IMG/VR virus record: IMGVR_UViG_3300050190_000307
Location: 1 to 22,094 of that record
DNA from: a virus
Reading direction: 5' to 3' (one strand)
Length of the DNA stretch: 22,094 bases
Under the pieces are notes generated by a model. It was not told where the DNA came from. It did not search any database and saw only the letters and a list, made by a program, of their open reading frames with translations. The translations under genes were made by a program, and so were the position numbers. This document shows positions 4,620-21,168 of this stretch, in pieces (position 1 is the stretch's first letter; each line of letters opens with the position of its first letter).

Positions 4620-5465
4620 TTAATATGCTACTTGAAACAATACTGCATATTTTGGCATAACCAATTTAGCACCAGAACAGATTTGACCCATAGCGATATC
4701 TTTGAAACCACTGTCCAATACTGCGGATTCAACCACTTTGTTTTCATTAAATCCATTGACGTGAGCAAAGGTTTTTCCGGCCACGAATGCAAGGCATTGG
4801 AAGGAATCCTTTACAGTTGCCACTTCAACCACTGAAACATCATTAGATTTAACAATAGTTAAATTGCCAACTTTCGTAATATATCCTAATGGCATATCTT
4901 GCTCTTGTGCAGTTCTAATGACTGTATCTTTTGCTAAGAGTGCTGCAATACGAGGAGGGAGCACTACAATTCTGCCTATCTGTGGGATCTCCAATTCATC
5001 CATTTTTGTATCCAGGTCGATCATGTAATCGTAAATATTAGTTTTGTCCAAAGATGTCTTTGCGATAATATGATCTGCATCTGCAACCTCAGTGTATTTG
5101 CTCAATACCAGTTTATCTGCGTCCCTAGCAATCTGAGTACCCATATCAACTAATGTTTCAGAGAACATACCGGTAGGCATACCCTCAGCTACGTCCTTAT
5201 GCTCGATTTCAAACTTATAGTTTTTGTCCTCAGTGATTTGAATAGTTACAGTGCTAGAATCAAGTTGATCGGCAGCTCTGCTAACTGGATTTGTTGCCGT
5301 GTCTTTCAGAGTAGCAGGAATGAGAATATTTACAGTTACACTTGTTCCTTTGCCCTTGATATCGCCCTCATATTGAGTAGCGCAGAATTGTCGAATTACA
5401 GAGTTGTTCCGTTGTGCTACTAAAATCTCTCTCGATACTGTGTCTTGAATAAAATTATTAGCCAT
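4620..5465 (-). CDS. Major capsid protein (HK97 fold)
   Basis: A 281-residue protein with the usual features of a Firmicute phage major capsid protein: it starts MANNFIQDTVSREILVAQRNNSVIRQF, has a central 'GD-KGKGTSV-V-ILIPATLKD' strand region (E-loop area), 'ARDADKLVLSKYT', a 'RIVVLPPRIAALLAKD' segment and 'GYITKVGNLTIVKSNDV', and ends with a short beta strand. It lies directly after a DUF4355-type scaffold, the expected order. AGAAGGAA precedes the ATG. Hairpins flank it at 5510-5529 and 4577-4612, so its mRNA may be a discrete, stable species, fitting a product needed in hundreds of copies. Confidence 0.9.
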   Translation of the reverse strand: MANNFIQDTVSREILVAQRNNSVIRQFCATQYEGDIKGKGTSVTVNILIPATLKDTATNPVSRAADQLDSSTVTIQITEDKNYKFEIEHKDVAEGMPTGMFSETLVDMGTQIARDADKLVLSKYTEVADADHIIAKTSLDKTNIYDYMIDLDTKMDELEIPQIGRIVVLPPRIAALLAKDTVIRTAQEQDMPLGYITKVGNLTIVKSNDVSVVEVATVKDSFQCLAFVAGKTFAHVNGFNENKVVESAVLDSGFKDIAMGQICSGAKLVMPKYAVLFQVAY

Positions 5466-12463: not shown

Positions 12464-12955
12464 GTGACTATTATTAAACGTTGTTACCTACTTGATACCA
12501 ATATAATCCTTACGATTTGGGAGCAAGGTCTAGATATCTTAGATATAATTGAAGAAAATTCTTTCGTAGATTTTAAGATCACTAATGATTGTGTTGTCGA
12601 ATCATGCCCATATACAGAAGATATCAATGAATATTTTCGTAATCCAAAAATACTACAATTACTGGATCATATGATTAGTAATGACGTGAGTTCTGGTGTA
12701 GAAGGTATTAAATTAAATCGATTTATCATTAAAAAGGACAATAAGATTTATTCTATTGTTGGGAATAAAATTTCTCCCATAGATTATTCGCTTATAGTTA
12801 TGTGTCAAAACTATCCTTATCTTACGCTTGTAACTGATGATAAACGGATTCTTAAAAGTGCTCAAAAAATTATCCCTCAGATTCAATACCTAAACTTCAA
12901 AGAATTCATGGTAGACCTACAACGATTAGAGGTAATCACTTCTTCCTCGATATAA
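12464..12955 (+). CDS. PIN-domain ribonuclease-like protein
   Basis: The only plus-strand gene in the window, up to 163 residues. PIN-domain features: D11 and N13 in YLLDTNIIL, E46 in 'NDCVVESCPY', D107 in SPIDYSLIV and D125/D126 in LVTDDKRIL, which give the acidic metal-binding quartet. PIN domains are Mg-dependent ribonucleases, often toxins of VapBC-type systems, but no partner antitoxin gene is adjacent. Start: the GTG at 12464 overlaps the AAGGAG ribosome site (12459-12464), so the true start may be one of the two ATT codons at 12470 or 12473, at 5 or 8 bases spacing. Strand, position and lone status suggest an accessory gene, either expressed in the lysogen or acting against host RNA or tRNA. 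Fold assignment is fairly sure, substrate unknown. Confidence 0.82.
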   Translation: MTIIKRCYLLDTNIILTIWEQGLDILDIIEENSFVDFKITNDCVVESCPYTEDINEYFRNPKILQLLDHMISNDVSSGVEGIKLNRFIIKKDNKIYSIVGNKISPIDYSLIVMCQNYPYLTLVTDDKRILKSAQKIIPQIQYLNFKEFMVDLQRLEVITSSSI

Positions 12956-13187: not shown

Positions 13188-14777
13188 TTATTTTGTCTTC
13201 ATAATCTGCCTAATTTTCCAATTGGAGAAATAGACATGACAGTCCCATTTATTTTCCACATTGCCCCATTTGATAGCTTTCAATTGTGCCGGAGTAGCAC
13301 CTTCAAACTTCCAAGATGTATTTTTCAACATGTAGGAAGTAATTTTACTAATGGATTCATTTTCAACAAAGTCAATCACATCTATAACGCTTGAACTTGA
13401 ATTTACCAGCTCAATAGAATTATGATCTTTCAAGGAATTAACTTCATAGACATAGAATTCATCATCATATCTATCCTTCTCAATGACATAGTGAAAATCT
13501 GTACTTATTGATAGTGCATAAGTATCATTATCTGCCTTCCACCAATCATAAGAAGATGTTTCATTTAGCGTGTATCCTAAATCAGCATTGAATAAGGCAA
13601 CTTCTTCAGCATATAGCTCTTGTTCCCTAATTAATTCTTCATCTGCCTTTTGCTTTTCAATGACTTCTTCTTTGTTTCTTTCTTGTGCCTCACTCAGGTT
13701 TTCACCATCATTTATTTTGACACCAAAGACATCCTCAATACTCATAAGGTCATGGGTCTTAATGGTATCCTTCATATCTAAAATTAAGCAATCAGATTTA
13801 CCAGGATCGATTCTAAGCCCTCTACCAATCATTTGCACATATTTGGTCTTACTCTTAGTTGGAGAAGCTAGAATAATGCAGTTTAGTGCTTCCATATCCC
13901 ATCCGGTTGTTAGGATATTACAATTCGTAATCACAGGAAATTTACCCTTTGAAAAAGCATCTAACAATTCTGATCTATCATCTTTATCCGTTTTACTATT
14001 CACTGTCCTGCATTTAATCCCATCGGCAATAAAAGCGTTCATAATATTATTACTGTGTTCTATTCCTGCTGTGAAAATAACAGTATGTTCTCTATCCCTG
14101 GCATACTTTTTGTAAGCATCAACAATTTGCTTATTCCTTTGGGGTGTATCTATTTCATCTTGAAGAGATTTTTGGTTAAATTCTCCTGCTATCGTTTTCA
14201 CATTACTAATGTCTTGATCTGTTTGTATTTGAAAGGCTCTTGGCTCGCAAAGATACCCACTTTTAATCATTTCTAAAATTGTTTTACCATATGAAACTTC
14301 ATCGAAAATATCTTTTAATTTATCTGAATACGGAGTTGCTGTGAACCCGCAAATCTTAATGTCTTTATTTAGTTTTGATAGAATCAATTTGATTTGATCA
14401 ATTCCCATATGTACCTCATCAAAAATGGCATATTCAAATTCACCTAATGCAATCATTTTCTCCAATCGAGTGGATTTCTTATGACTGAGGCTCTGCCTTG
14501 TGGCTAACACAACTGAATGATCAAACTCATTAATATTAGCCTGTACTGAACCAACATCACAATTAGGATCTAATTTCTTGAGTTTGTCAATTCCTTGAAC
14601 TCTAAGCTCCTTACTTGGAACAATAATCAAAACTTTTCCTTTTGCTTTAGCAGCCACGCTTGAAAATATTACTGTTTTTCCAGTACCACAGGGCAATACA
14701 ATTAATCTATTCTCACCTGCTTCCATGAACTCAATTATTTCTACAGCTTCTTGTTGATAATCCCTTAACTCGTACAT
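13188..14777 (-). CDS. SF2 helicase (ResIII/DEAD-like) with unknown C-terminal domain
   Basis: A 529-residue superfamily 2 helicase. Motif I LPCGTGKT (28-35), motif II DEVH (120-123), motif III GFTATP (144-149), the LTTGWD block (289-294) and motif VI QMIGRGLR (315-322) are all present, so ATPase activity is expected. After the helicase core comes a charged coiled-coil (about 360-397, rich in Glu/Lys/Gln) and a C-terminal part of about 130 residues that I do not recognise; its 'ATPAQLKAIKWG' resembles a small nucleic-acid-binding segment. Likely role: DNA unwinding or fork remodelling in phage replication or recombination. AAGGGGAG precedes the ATG. The upstream neighbour is a 48-codon ORF and then the structured block 14952-15325. 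No close gene follows on this strand for about 860 bases. Confidence 0.9.
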   Translation of the reverse strand: MYELRDYQQEAVEIIEFMEAGENRLIVLPCGTGKTVIFSSVAAKAKGKVLIIVPSKELRVQGIDKLKKLDPNCDVGSVQANINEFDHSVVLATRQSLSHKKSTRLEKMIALGEFEYAIFDEVHMGIDQIKLILSKLNKDIKICGFTATPYSDKLKDIFDEVSYGKTILEMIKSGYLCEPRAFQIQTDQDISNVKTIAGEFNQKSLQDEIDTPQRNKQIVDAYKKYARDREHTVIFTAGIEHSNNIMNAFIADGIKCRTVNSKTDKDDRSELLDAFSKGKFPVITNCNILTTGWDMEALNCIILASPTKSKTKYVQMIGRGLRIDPGKSDCLILDMKDTIKTHDLMSIEDVFGVKINDGENLSEAQERNKEEVIEKQKADEELIREQELYAEEVALFNADLGYTLNETSSYDWWKADNDTYALSISTDFHYVIEKDRYDDEFYVYEVNSLKDHNSIELVNSSSSVIDVIDFVENESISKITSYMLKNTSWKFEGATPAQLKAIKWGNVENKWDCHVYFSNWKIRQIMKTK

Positions 14778-14802
14778 CTATTTTAACTCCCCTTATTATT
14801 AA

Positions 14803-14949
14803 TTAAATTGTTCTCTTATTTTTAGACACAAAAAGGACTACAAACGATTCAATACTAATAGGGTACAATTCACCACCCATAGCATTTGAAACGATCCTAG
14901 CCAATCCTGAAGCCTCATATTTGATTCTAGTGACTTTAGTTAATTTCAT
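14803..14949 (-). CDS. Possible small protein, 48 residues
   Basis: Open frame starting MKLTKVTRIKYEASGLARIV and ending KNKRTI. The composition (basic ends, 'GGELYPISIESFVVLFV' in the middle) looks protein-like, and it ends 25 bases before the helicase ATG. Against it: there is no recognisable ribosome site, and the ATG lies three bases from the foot of the long inverted repeat 14952-15085, so initiation might be occluded. Not recognised. Confidence 0.4.
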   Translation of the reverse strand: MKLTKVTRIKYEASGLARIVSNAMGGELYPISIESFVVLFVSKNKRTI

Positions 14950-14951
14950 TA

Positions 14952-15085
14952 ATTAAACACATATTCAATGCACATTAAATATTCCCTAGTTTGGCAATAT
15001 GTCCTCACTTTACTTACTGGCTAAATAAAAAAAGGAAAACTAGGAGCCAAGATTAATATCTATGTGCATTGGTTATGTGTTTAAT
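14952..15085. repeat. Long imperfect inverted repeat (origin or noncoding RNA candidate)
   Basis: Arms 14952-14975 and 15062-15085 match at 22 of 24 positions. Nested inside, 14985-14992 and 15037-15044 (CCTAGTTT/AAACTAGG) are a second perfect pair, and TTTGGC/GCCAAG add further pairing with a bulge. The apex is an A-rich loop. No coding frame explains this. Position between two replication-type helicases suggests an origin element; it could also be an RNA structure in the leader of the 14803-14949 ORF and helicase. Confidence 0.75.
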
Positions 15086-15130
15086 AAACTTTCATATGCA
15101 AACAAAGGGGAACGACAACAATTTGAATTT

Positions 15131-15214
15131 GCTAAAGGTTGGGCTTCCCTCTCGGGTCGCCAAACCAAGCAAATGTCAAAATTGTGTGTTTGATTTTGCC
15201 CACCGTGGGCAAAA
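15131..15214. other. Two GC-rich hairpins in noncoding block
   Basis: 15131-15170 folds as an interrupted hairpin (GGTT-GGC-CCC against GGG-GCC-AACC with a TCTC loop). 15194-15214 is a perfect 9-bp hairpin (TTTTGCCCA, three-base loop). Both stand out by GC content from the AT-rich surroundings. I did not match them to a known riboswitch, tRNA or ribozyme. With the inverted repeat and the terminator they fill the 374-base gap 14950-15323, where I see no other gene. Confidence 0.6.
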
Positions 15215-15232
15215 GTCATATCTCTTTAATTT

Positions 15233-15325
15233 TTTTACTTATTAATTTTTGAATCAATAAGTAAAAAGTGTCCAGATTTTACGTTGTATCAGTATATTGA
15301 TAGGAGGTAAAAAGTGGACACTTTT
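15233..15325 (-). terminator. Overlapping hairpins at the 3' end of the 538-residue helicase gene
   Basis: Stem B (AAAAGTGTCCA at 15264-15274 with its complement at 15315-15325) covers the helicase stop codon. Stem A (15233-15243 with 15256-15266, TTTTACTTATT) shares bases 15264-15266 with stem B, so the two cannot both form fully. On the minus strand each is followed by T-rich or A/T-rich sequence, giving a terminator with two alternative folds. Confidence 0.65.
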
Positions 15326-16940
15326 ATGTAATTGTTTTGCATTGATTATTTTTATCAGTTATTATCCAATATGTTTTATTAAAATTAATGGATTTTTTAG
15401 ATCTTTCTTTTTTGGATGTTATTTTGAAATATAAATTATTATCTTTAAATAGGCTATTAATAGTTTTCATTCCACAGCTTCCATGATTCTCTTTAGGTGG
15501 ACAAAACAATTTACCCAATAATAATTGAATGAAATCATCTTTGCCATATCCATCTTCTTCGACCTCTTCAAATAGTTTTTTCCCTTTTAAATTTCCTACT
15601 ATGTCTCTAAGGGTTATTGCATCATAGGTATCCTCTAATTTTATAGTAGTTGAATAATCAATTTCTAATACTTCACATACTGTAAAACCAAAGCCATTTT
15701 CTTGCATTTTTTTGGCTACTTCAACATCCTTATTCAATTTGAAATAAACAACATCGTTCAAACATGCTTCAATTACCTTATCCGATGTGTAATAGACAGC
15801 AGTATTCTTTTCCTTGCGACCATATTTCTTAACATATTCTAACCCACCATATTCAACCAAATAGTTTGCCTTTTGTAATTTAGTATTGAACTTATTTAAT
15901 GTTAAATTAAGACTTTGCTTGCCTCTATTTCTTATGTAGACGGTGATTTTATCATTTTGATTAGTCACCCTTTTTCTTCCCAGGCATTGAATTAATGTAT
16001 CCAAATCGAAATAATCTACAATCATATGTTTAAGAGAAACATCCTCGATACTTACTCCGCAATCTAAAACAGAAGTAGTGCATAATACTTGGCAATCAAA
16101 TTTCTTTTCATTAATGATTTGCTCTTGAATAATGTCATTTGAATACTTTCTATATGCACCATTATTTTTGCTACAAATAAATTCTGCTTTGTCAAAAAGG
16201 TCATTACTTGCTTGATACGCCTTCTCAGCTCCACAGAAATACATTGCTTTTTCATCTGGTGGTAATTCTACTAGCATTTTCATAAGTGCTTGATCATCCT
16301 CATAAAAGCAAACATTTTCTATGTATTCATTAGTTCTCTTCATGGAGTAAACTTTCAATTTTTGTTTTCTATTAACTTCAAGGTACTCTCTAATATTTTT
16401 GCTAGTGGCTGAAAGCATAATTTTTATTGAATTAGTAGCATTAATTAACCAGTTAATGCTCAAATCGGTATTCTCATTAACATAAACATCTCCGCAAACA
16501 TAGTGGATTTCATCTGCAACTATTATGTCATATTTTTTTTTTGGTTCTTTACCATATGATAATAAAGTTTCTAGTTTTTGGTAATTCATTATAGTAATTA
16601 CATCTTGTCTTTTTTCTCTTTCAATATCTACCGCAAATTGACTTTTCAAGATGTCTCTATTTGTTAGAAATAAAATACTCAAGCCTTTACTTTTGCAATG
16701 ATTGTAAAGTGGATTATTAATAAACCATGATTTACCTGAATCCGTTTGGGCATCAAATAAGATATTATCTCCGTCTTCCCAACTTTCAATATCTTTAATT
16801 TTTACTAAATGACTGATACGTGGTTTTACCCATTTTATGCTTAATGGATCTGGTAGTTTACTATTTATATCTTCAATTAATTCATTGACCCATTGAATAT
16901 CTATCTGTACATCTTGAATGAAATTATCTTTTACTTTCAC
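15324..16940 (-). CDS. SF2 helicase, origin-binding-protein-like
   Basis: A 538-residue protein of the SF2 helicase superfamily. Motif I is AQTDSGKS (64-71), less usual than G-x-G-KT/S but with G-K-S kept. Motif II is DEIH (143-146), motif III SAT (177-179), then 'TTSVLDCGVSI' (288-298) and motif VI QCLGRKR (318-324). The arrangement, with the second RecA domain ending in 'D--TLIQ-LGRKR', resembles phage and herpesvirus-type origin-binding helicases. The C-terminal 200 residues are unrecognised, with a likely DNA-binding, lysine-rich end. The start is GTG at 16940 (AGGGG ten bases upstream); no ATG is nearby. It lies downstream of a candidate attenuator and upstream of the inverted-repeat block, which would suit a replication initiator next to its origin. 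That pairing is inference. Confidence 0.85.
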   Translation of the reverse strand: MKVKDNFIQDVQIDIQWVNELIEDINSKLPDPLSIKWVKPRISHLVKIKDIESWEDGDNILFDAQTDSGKSWFINNPLYNHCKSKGLSILFLTNRDILKSQFAVDIEREKRQDVITIMNYQKLETLLSYGKEPKKKYDIIVADEIHYVCGDVYVNENTDLSINWLINATNSIKIMLSATSKNIREYLEVNRKQKLKVYSMKRTNEYIENVCFYEDDQALMKMLVELPPDEKAMYFCGAEKAYQASNDLFDKAEFICSKNNGAYRKYSNDIIQEQIINEKKFDCQVLCTTSVLDCGVSIEDVSLKHMIVDYFDLDTLIQCLGRKRVTNQNDKITVYIRNRGKQSLNLTLNKFNTKLQKANYLVEYGGLEYVKKYGRKEKNTAVYYTSDKVIEACLNDVVYFKLNKDVEVAKKMQENGFGFTVCEVLEIDYSTTIKLEDTYDAITLRDIVGNLKGKKLFEEVEEDGYGKDDFIQLLLGKLFCPPKENHGSCGMKTINSLFKDNNLYFKITSKKERSKKSINFNKTYWIITDKNNQCKTIT

Positions 16941-18000: not shown

Positions 18001-18030
18001 ATTATACTACATTTAACGTATTTTTGTCAA
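18001..18030 (-). promoter_or_regulatory. Near-consensus sigma-A promoter at the 3' end of the polymerase gene
   Basis: On the minus strand TTGACA (18030-18025), an 18-base spacer and TATAAT (18006-18001). Both hexamers are exact and the spacer is one base over optimum. The -35 lies inside the last codons of the polymerase gene. It should drive the HTH gene, the small basic gene and, through the attenuator, the helicase, independently of the phage polymerase. Confidence 0.85.
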
Positions 18031-21000
18031 TGCTTTTTTAGAGTATTTTTGTATATTATTAATGTCAAAAATTGTATTTAGAGTATTCCCCTCACCATCA
18101 TCCATAAACGGGATGTCAATTAACAGATTGGTTTGACCTGTCGGAGAAAGATAAAATCCATTACCGTGCAAATTCTTCATGATCAATTCATATTTGCAAT
18201 TGCTTATGTTCGACAGTTTGCAGATATGGCTGGGGGTTATTTTATTCTTTTTGCCTGGACAGATAAAGAACCTTGCATTATTTGATTTGTGTAGCCTATT
18301 TATCACTAGTAATACAAACAAAACTCTTTTTTGTTCATTGGTTAATTTTGCCCTACGAATATAATTTACTTCCGACTGATATACATTAACCTCAATATTA
18401 GTAACATCAATATTAATCTTTTTTGTCTGTATTATTTTCCCCTTATCATCTTTTATTTCTTGATCCATGCTGAGGTTAATCTTTACTAATTCACTCGACT
18501 CGTTATTTTTCTCTATCTTCTTCTGTGCTTTTTTCGCTTTTAGTTCAAATACTTTGGTATCAAAATCTTTGTCAGTAAAATATTCACCTTTGCTATTGAC
18601 TCGGCTCACCATTTCATTAGGGAAGCAGTTCCAAAGAATGGCTTTATCAACATACTTCTTGTCCGTATAGCAGATGATCAATAGATAGTCTAGAATTTTA
18701 TCGAGGTTAACATTAGCACGACATAAAGATAATAGGGAATTCCTTACATAATCATAAAAGATTTTATATTTGTAATTGTTATCTTTTACGTCCTGTGATT
18801 TAGTTTGATAAATCCTCTCTTGGGAAATCTGGCTATGCAGTTTATTAAACTCTTCCATCATTTTTTTAACGCTTTTATAAGTATAAGAATATTGGTCAGT
18901 TTTGCTTTTTAATAATTTTTCCCATCCAAAATTAATGATTTGGGAATCCTCCACCGCCTTATCAATCTCAGCAAATTTTTCTTCCAGATACAAGCAAATC
19001 ATATTGACTGTACATTTGTTTCGATTCAATTTTTCAATTGGCTCAGACAACCCTTTAATTTTTCTGTTAGCATTTATTCTTTTCTCTTTTGTGATTTCTT
19101 TTGGATATTTATATCGCATGAAATAAGGTAATTTTTGTTTACTCAGAGATTTCTTGATCTCAGTCGGAGTATTTGCAAGTATACCTGTCTTAGCATAGTC
19201 AATGATTTGCGCCCCAATTACACTCATAACCTTAATATGATTATCTCTTTGCTCTGATTGTTCAAGACTCCAAAGGGTAGTAATATCGTTGACACACTGG
19301 CCTATACCACCCTTCATACCATTGCAATCCGTTTCAATAAGCTTCTTCATATCATTAATAGGGTAGGTTAGTTTTGGCTGTTTCTTTTCATCTTCTGATT
19401 GCTCAGGAGGGATATGCAGAATAGTCTTACTCTCTTGTCTGATAATAGCTGTTAGGAGTCTGCCCTCAGCGATACCATAAATGTGGTCGCCATCAAAATC
19501 TGCCGTTCCAAGCCTTAGTGCCGTACTATCCTTAATATTGATGACATACCCCTCTGTGATATAATCAAGGTATTTTACATCATCATTATCTGGTTTTACT
19601 ACATCAATTAACTTCCATTCTCTAGCAATATGGGGGAATCTACATAAGCCTATCTTTTCAACTTTTTCAGAGTACCAAAATTGGTTATATACCTCGTTTG
19701 CGTTTAATACCCCTGTCACAATTAACCCAAACGCATGTTGTGCCAATCCAACTAGATCTGGAATTAGAGTTTGGAAGCTGCCTCTCAAAACTAACATGCC
19801 CTTGCAACTTCGATTCTTAAATCCTTTTAGATCATCTTTGATTTTATTTTGTATGTAGTCATCATTAAATAAATCTTTGTTGGCTTTAAGTGCTTCATAA
19901 TAGGTAGGTAAATAATGCTCCTCTTGTTGCCGTATTTCACCTGTTTCTTCATCTACTTTATCCACCATACCTCTAAATTTTAGGAACTCATCTACATCTG
20001 TTCTAATTTTTTGATATGTATTTACTGTTTTATAGCATAGCTTTTCAACCTCGTCTTGGCTTATTGATAATGTCTGAAGTGGTTGGTAACTCAATACCAC
20101 ACTATCATTGAGATGCTTAGTATCTGAATATGCCGATATATTGAAGGTTCTTTTATATCCATGTGTTTCAGTTGTGAAAGCCTTTAACCAAGCATCATAA
20201 CTGGAATATAGCTTATGGAATTTGAACTGGGATTTTGTTAATATGGCATCGACCAAAAGATTCCCCTCTGCATCGAATAAATCCCATGTTCTTCCCCACA
20301 TATCAGTGATCTGATTAACACCTTTTTCCAATGCAAACCCTCTCATATCGAAGGTAAAAAGATCTCCTTTCCCACACGGAATAAATCTGAATTGCCAACA
20401 GGCAGGGATTTTGCTTTTACTTGCTTTTTCCTCATTTCCTTTATCATCTTGTACAATATTAATTCCCAAATCATTACAAAACTTTTCAGCACATTCTACC
20501 GATATCAAACCTGCGCCATCGAATGGCATGATCTCAGTTTCATGTTTTTGATTATTAACTACCTCATATTGATCTTTACCTGTTTCTTTTACTAAATCAA
20601 AGATTTCTTCAATATCATGTTTATAATCATCAATAATCACAATTCTAGGCATTGTTACAGGAATTGAATCAGTGGAGCATAAAGCAAAATAGCTTGAGAA
20701 TTTCGCAAAAACATCGTACTTTTGATCAACGCTCAAACCGCAAAGTAGAATTTCATTTACCTTGTCATATAGCGATTCTTTAATAAATACCTCTTTAGAA
20801 TTGCGAATATTTCCAGAACTAGCCATAAGACGTTTGGATCTATCATTATTGAAAGTTAAAATCCCCTTGGAATCCTTAAGTAATTGAATATCCTCACCTA
20901 TGTCAACAACCACGACATCATTTATGTAGGGATAATTTGATTTATTTGATAGTGGTTTTTTATTCTCAGGATTGAGATGTTTGACGATCCTTAATAATTC

Positions 21001-21168
21001 TGATTCACGCATAAGGGTAGAATATTTTTTCAGGTTATCTTGATCAACCTCTAGTTTATTATCTTGAAAAGCCTTTATCTTTAATTTTAGAATTTGGTTC
21101 ATTGTTTGGTTTATTGTTTGGTTTATTGTTTGGTTTATTGTTTGGTTTATTGTTTGTTCAATCTTCAT
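18013..21168 (-). CDS. Single-chain DPBB RNA polymerase (YonO / QDE-1 type)
   Basis: A 1051-residue protein. Key site: RLGTADFDGDHIYG, with the three metal-binding aspartates of the D-x-D-G-D motif at D557, D559 and D561, the catalytic signature of double-psi beta-barrel RNA polymerases. Further blocks fit the group that contains eukaryotic QDE-1-like enzymes and SP-beta YonO: 'MPFDGAGLISVECAEKF' (214-230, cf. DG-G-IS---A), 'IPACWQFRFIPCGKGDLFTFDM' (254-275), 'CKGMLVLRGSFQTLIPDL' (455-472), 'GVLNANEVYNQFW' (486-498) and 'GLCRFPHIAREWKL' (507-520). Known: YonO is a DNA-dependent polymerase for SP-beta late genes. Inferred: the same role here. It begins with five TINQ-type repeats; GGAGG lies about 12 bases before the ATG. 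The C-terminal 350 residues are unrecognised. It is longer than YonO (about 900 residues). All catalytic residues are intact. Confidence 0.9.
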   Translation of the reverse strand: MKIEQTINQTINQTINQTINQTMNQILKLKIKAFQDNKLEVDQDNLKKYSTLMRESELLRIVKHLNPENKKPLSNKSNYPYINDVVVVDIGEDIQLLKDSKGILTFNNDRSKRLMASSGNIRNSKEVFIKESLYDKVNEILLCGLSVDQKYDVFAKFSSYFALCSTDSIPVTMPRIVIIDDYKHDIEEIFDLVKETGKDQYEVVNNQKHETEIMPFDGAGLISVECAEKFCNDLGINIVQDDKGNEEKASKSKIPACWQFRFIPCGKGDLFTFDMRGFALEKGVNQITDMWGRTWDLFDAEGNLLVDAILTKSQFKFHKLYSSYDAWLKAFTTETHGYKRTFNISAYSDTKHLNDSVVLSYQPLQTLSISQDEVEKLCYKTVNTYQKIRTDVDEFLKFRGMVDKVDEETGEIRQQEEHYLPTYYEALKANKDLFNDDYIQNKIKDDLKGFKNRSCKGMLVLRGSFQTLIPDLVGLAQHAFGLIVTGVLNANEVYNQFWYSEKVEKIGLCRFPHIAREWKLIDVVKPDNDDVKYLDYITEGYVINIKDSTALRLGTADFDGDHIYGIAEGRLLTAIIRQESKTILHIPPEQSEDEKKQPKLTYPINDMKKLIETDCNGMKGGIGQCVNDITTLWSLEQSEQRDNHIKVMSVIGAQIIDYAKTGILANTPTEIKKSLSKQKLPYFMRYKYPKEITKEKRINANRKIKGLSEPIEKLNRNKCTVNMICLYLEEKFAEIDKAVEDSQIINFGWEKLLKSKTDQYSYTYKSVKKMMEEFNKLHSQISQERIYQTKSQDVKDNNYKYKIFYDYVRNSLLSLCRANVNLDKILDYLLIICYTDKKYVDKAILWNCFPNEMVSRVNSKGEYFTDKDFDTKVFELKAKKAQKKIEKNNESSELVKINLSMDQEIKDDKGKIIQTKKINIDVTNIEVNVYQSEVNYIRRAKLTNEQKRVLFVLLVINRLHKSNNARFFICPGKKNKITPSHICKLSNISNCKYELIMKNLHGNGFYLSPTGQTNLLIDIPFMDDGEGNTLNTIFDINNIQKYSKKALTKIR
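21093..21152. repeat. Five tandem 12-bp units in the polymerase 5' end
   Basis: TTTGGTTTATTG (plus-strand sense) is repeated five times at 21093-21152, the leftmost copy with one C. Because 12 is a multiple of three, the copies translate as T-I-N-Q (last one T-M-N-Q) without breaking the frame. Copy number could vary by slippage. Confidence 0.9.

Follow-up and report, generated by a model that had tools for sequence, protein, structure and literature searches.

The window analyzed here, a stretch of 22,094 nucleotides, is a phage fragment of about 22 kb whose minus strand carries identified phage genes (terminase, portal, integrase, helicases, and polymerase). Between the two helicase genes lies a block of 374 bases (14952–15325) with several inverted repeats. 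A preliminary description of this DNA favored a replication origin beside an origin-binding-like helicase, and gave a long structured RNA as the other reading.

Organization of the locus

On the minus strand, the gene for a YonO-like RNA polymerase is followed by hel1, the block, hel2, and then the terminase and portal genes (Table 1). The closest relative (L006, identical to L009) is a Desulfosporosinus sp. BRH_c37 prophage with the same gene order, and its Hel1 is 84% identical to that of the window. The DxDGD catalytic motif is present in the polymerase as ADFDGD. In 29 of 77 loci a member of this polymerase's protein cluster is encoded no more than about 5 kb from hel1, on one side or the other, which suggests that the two genes form a common module. 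The start of the polymerase gene (21094–21168) contains a short tandem repeat, a run of TINQ repeats (MKIEQTINQTINQTINQTINQTMNQ). Elsewhere in the window, two adjoining and apparently paralogous genes (295 and 287 aa, no function assigned) occupy the fragment end at positions 1–1748, and a lone plus-strand gene of 163 aa, without a family match, lies inside the minus-strand operon at 12464–12955; by eye, its product looks like a PIN-type domain. Among the related loci, L007 (2660–5960) and L115 carry inserted pairs of transposase and ATPase genes that are IS21-like by eye.

The gap between the helicase genes had been described as holding no gene. A possible minus-strand ORF follows the block, however, and the gap is perhaps not wholly gene-free. 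L006 has a larger small ORF at the same place, 3' of the block.

Table 1. Coordinates of the features discussed, as positions in the window
Feature	Coordinates	Strand	Description	Basis or remark
YonO-like single-chain RNA polymerase	18013–21168	-	1051 aa, LGTADFDGDHIY motif	Pfam RdRP
hel1	15324–16940	-	SF2 DEAD/DEAH-type helicase, 538 aa	ORF; Pfam ResIII/Helicase_C
M1	15264–15325	.	62-bp three-tier imperfect inverted repeat with AT-rich center	Begins at hel1 stop codon
AT-only inverted repeat	15232–15267	.	Overlaps M1	Not conserved in L006
M2	15099–15221	-	Two conserved hairpins, 15194–15214 and 15120–15183	
M3	14949–15088	-	Long stem with 27-nt arms, inner stem, and invariant GGACATATTGCCAAA on 3' side	
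Possible ORF	14800–14946	-	48 codons, without clear ribosome-binding site	Read by eye; coding status uncertain
hel2	13188–14777	-	Second SF2 helicase, RadD/XPB-like, 529 aa	

A composite block

The block folds far better than its shuffles on either strand, with -127.8 kcal/mol on the minus strand (shuffles -70.1; z -10.9) and -121.8 kcal/mol on the plus strand (z -8.5); in both cases, none of 100 shuffles was as good. Pairing conserved in relatives, which the preliminary description had named as a check, was also found. Comparison with L006 showed that the conserved units are three (M1, M2, and M3), and the block is a composite of several elements rather than one. Most of the structures first reported are there. 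The long inverted repeat that had drawn attention to the block is real (arms at 14949–14975 and 15062–15088, 24 of 27 positions complementary, 86 nt apart) and encloses the nested second palindrome, a stem of CCTAGTTT and AAACTAGG, but it is M3, a less widespread part of the block. Both GC-containing hairpins were likewise recovered, one of them lying within 15120–15183 (M2). What had been called a double terminator, however, is a pair of overlapping inverted repeats, M1 and the AT-only repeat.

The block gave no tRNA match and no Rfam match at the gathering score; relaxed Rfam thresholds returned only matches far below gathering scores, mostly to eukaryotic families and none of them relevant. 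With the block as query, named phages gave no match at the DNA level. No earlier report was found in the literature searched, and a search there for a named RNA motif associated with helicases gave no result.

M1 recurs at the 3' end of hel1

The outer arms of M1 (AAAAGTGTCCA ... TGGACACTTTT) are inverted sites that flank an AT-rich spacer. Hel1 relatives were drawn from viral contigs, genomes, and phages, and at most of the 77 loci, which are partly related so that counts are not fully independent, a hairpin of about 55–70 nt with the same three-tier plan begins no more than a few bases from the hel1 stop codon. An earlier, looser hairpin scan over-extended stems and was replaced by a stricter one. 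At 44 of the 77 loci the M1-like hairpin beat all ten of its own shuffles, and of 22 new loci tested blind, 13 had a hairpin that beat 50 shuffles, with at least two further loci showing the same M1 shape. In L067 and L069 hel1 is frameshifted, and the hairpin nonetheless follows the true end of the reading frame. Because 6 of 18 other gene ends used as controls also carry a hairpin above 20 shuffles, the presence of M1 alone is a weak argument; the weight of the case rests on the common shape together with the covariation, DNA-type, and C-terminus tests.

A model of M1 (R2) was built from 17 M1 sequences and used to search 745 kb. The hel1 3' end was the site of 57 of the first 59 matches, part of these 57 being the model's own training sequences, and the remaining two were both strands of a second M1 copy in L045. 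The M1 elements of the window, L006, and L007 escape R2 and were assigned via position and shape. One R2 match, in G015, turned out to be a terminator-like hairpin of the chromosome. In a whole-contig search M1 was usually single per phage contig and at the hel1 end. Second near-identical copies were found in two phages, at 5226–5282 of L117 (G055) and 3478–3534 of L116 (G060); one lies upstream of hel1, while that of G060 lies 20 kb away, after the tape-measure gene.

The arms of M1 vary between phages yet remain complementary. The covariation score was 0.82, against 0.22 in shuffles and at most 0.22 with the partners slid, and across the 17 sequences the outer stem was 97% paired with zero one-sided changes. 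A search for iterons around M1 showed no overall enrichment of outer-arm words in the flanks (77 vs 67) and no general iterons.

M1 behaves as DNA

The mismatches tolerated within a stem were compared under a pairing score in which G.U and A.C count equally. In M1 the ratio of G.U to A.C was 38:30 in the first set and 48:36 after new loci were added, whereas terminators of the same loci gave 37:7, as expected for RNA (Fisher p 0.003 against 48:36). Among 27 M1 elements outside the training set, the gene strand gave the best score in 14 and the opposite strand in 13, the differences between strand scores being sometimes small. A T-tract follows M1 in only one of 46 elements, namely the window's own. 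M1 behaves as DNA, not RNA, and the terminator reading of 15264–15325 fails, since the relatives' elements are without a T-tract or G.U bias and occur in both orientations. The comparison of G.U with A.C also gives genome scans a simple means of separating hairpins of the DNA and RNA types.

Hel1 and its C-terminal domain

The Pfam matches of Hel1 are ResIII, Helicase_C, and DEAD only. In fold searches (AF2 model, pLDDT 85) the helicase part matched generic SF2 enzymes, and origin-binding proteins of HHV-1, HHV-3, and giant viruses were among the closest viral models, with the HSV-1 OBP–OriS complex also among the fold neighbors. The helicase had been called origin-binding-like, which fits these structural neighbors. 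Pfam Herpes_ori_bp gave no match in Hel1 at E 0.001. The C-terminus was modeled alone because the whole-model structure search barely tested it, and no strong fold match came out. The model has the element order of a winged helix, and its matches, weak at Z 4.5 or less, are nearly all winged-helix DNA-binding domains; from these weak matches the region of residues about 435–530 is predicted to be winged-helix-like.

M1 and this region vary together. In Mantel tests, M1 similarity correlated more strongly with identity over Hel1 residues 425–538 (r 0.30, p<0.001) than with identity of the core (r 0.15, p 0.04). Controlling for the core left a C-terminal effect of 0.28 (p<0.001), while controlling for the C-terminus left none for the core (-0.10). 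Single pairs of loci illustrate this. L055 and L063 have cores 97% identical, C-termini 72% identical, and unrelated M1s, whereas L060 and L063, with cores at 78% and C-termini at 81%, have the same M1 arm. Because M1 and the C-terminal coding sequence adjoin, linkage through recombination is an alternative explanation for the correlation.

M2 and M3

M2 was found in five distinct sequences (the window, L006, L031, L115, and L089/L130), always just after M1, and an improved M2 model searched against 73 loci and 83 genomes gave matches confined to hel1 loci. A stretch in L037 resembles the reverse complement of the M2 tail, yet no inverted M2 copy was found there. Covariation in M2 amounts to 29 double-change cells against 9.4 in shuffles. 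M3 is present in two sequences only, the window and L006, with GGACATATTGCCAAA invariant in its internal loop. The counts for M2 by itself (4 G.U, 0 A.C) are too small for a judgment; for M2 and M3 together the ratio is 16:4, and because of this ratio, small as the numbers are, both are most simply taken as RNA on the gene strand. The structured-RNA reading of the preliminary description thus fits M2 and M3 better, but not M1. There is about an even chance that M2 and M3 belong to a structured RNA of the phage, a proposal compatible with any reading of M1; the covariation of M2, the mismatch ratio, and the invariant GGACATATTGCCAAA argue for it, while the small number of distinct sequences and the lack of an Rfam match count against it.

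Two further features were seen in this region of the relatives. Downstream of M2 or M1, L006 (7870–7940), L031 (6180–6270), L115, and L032 share a conserved motif, GAATACAGGGCGCTTACCAGCGGGGT, that the window lacks. Hairpins near hel1 with the loop GCTATCGCT, otherwise different in sequence, occur in L006 (about 7930), L039 (5560–5610), and L043 (5600).

Discussion

The best explanation of the block, with a probability of roughly 0.45, is that M1 is a Hel1 site and lytic replication origin and that M2 and M3 are gene-strand hairpins. The presence of M1, its conserved pairing, its DNA-like behavior, its adjacency to hel1, and its joint variation with the C-terminal domain are observations. On comparison of the sequences, M1 is probably the cognate DNA site of Hel1; by analogy, it is possibly a phage replication origin. 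We infer a mechanism in which the winged-helix-like domain of Hel1 would grip the two inverted outer arms and the helicase motor would open the intervening AT-rich hairpin or extrude it, M1 thereby acting as the lytic replication origin of these prophages in the manner of UL9 on OriS, while M2 and M3 would be hairpins on the gene strand, probably RNA within the hel1–hel2 transcript. The origin first proposed for the whole block is narrowed accordingly in extent: M1 is a DNA-level element tied to Hel1 and co-varying with its C-terminal domain, but the block around it is composite. Against an origin, the Hel1 matches to origin-binding proteins sit among many generic SF2 helicases, and the extra copy of M1 that G060 has at a distance of 20 kb would be unusual for a single origin.

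In OriS, inverted boxes flank an AT-rich spacer and UL9 also binds the hairpin form, and RVKNL is the recognition motif of the herpes-type origin-binding protein (PMC12543377). Similarly, Hel1 is an SF2 helicase with a candidate DNA-binding region at its C-terminus, and M1 consists of inverted sites around an AT-rich center able to form a hairpin. However, Hel1 has 538 aa against 851 for UL9, its C-terminus is winged-helix-like, and RVKNL is absent from its translation; M1, a putative origin, adjoins the helicase gene and has three tiers. Because it has neither a Pfam Herpes_ori_bp match nor RVKNL, we do not assign Hel1 to the UL9 family. In lambdoid phages, the DNA-binding domain of the initiator O and ori adjoin and vary together between phages, much as the Hel1 C-terminal domain and M1 do. 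Lambda O is not a helicase, however, and the lambda ori comprises iterons located within the O gene, whereas Hel1 is a helicase and M1 a palindrome after the gene. It is a tentative proposal, short of an even bet, that these phages hold a counterpart of the herpesvirus origin system in which an exchangeable Hel1 C-terminal DNA-binding domain evolves with an adjacent hairpin-forming origin. The phages in question often also have a YonO-like RNA polymerase.

Much of the same evidence (the hel1-end matches, covariation, C-terminus correlation, and orientation) would be expected if Hel1 bound M1 in some role besides replication initiation, for example in regulation, recombination, packaging, or partition. 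This is rather unlikely, though the second copy in G060 would suit it. Packaging sites often lie at terS/terL, and these genes follow M1 in L031, L043, and L089, but they do so in few loci only, M1 following hel1 whatever the next gene, and a packaging site was set aside for this reason. As an RNA hairpin of the hel1 transcript, whether a terminator, a 3' end stabilizer, or a regulatory RNA, M1 would resemble an intrinsic terminator in being a hairpin after a gene; it lies directly 3' of the stop codon, the window's own copy is followed by a T run, and hairpins follow other genes too. The near-equal G.U and A.C counts, the equal orientations, and the general lack of a T-tract set it apart from terminators and make this improbable.

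Still less probable is a reading of M1, M2, and M3 as small mobile elements or repeats that collect in this intergenic gap. The near-identical second copies in G060 and G055, the different combinations of hairpin modules among relatives, and the IS elements that L007 and L115 carry within or next to this gap would fit such a reading, but M1 is mostly a single element at the hel1 end, and its arms vary freely, stay complementary, and track the Hel1 C-terminus, unlike copies of a transposing repeat. The promoters of the N4 virion RNA polymerase are small hairpins of 5–7 bp upstream of early genes, recognized as DNA. M1 is likewise a phage hairpin behaving as DNA, and many loci have polymerase genes close to hel1, so that M1 might be a hairpin-type promoter for the YonO-like polymerase; the promoter of YonO itself was not determined in PMC5467207. 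We regard this as the least probable of the alternatives: M1 is an element of 55–70 bp that comes after hel1 and not before each operon, is usually single and orientation-neutral, and many hel1 loci have no polymerase within the flanks examined.

The finding is broader than first described, in that a helicase-linked, DNA-level palindrome is common to many phages. If M1 is the site of Hel1, the two would form an unrecognized initiator–origin pair common to dozens of prophages, in Desulfosporosinus relatives and other bacteria, with a specificity readable from sequence. Such a pair would explain part of the replication module in prophages with YonO-like polymerases, could provide swappable origin–protein pairs, and would offer a bacterial model, open to testing, for herpes-type origin recognition.
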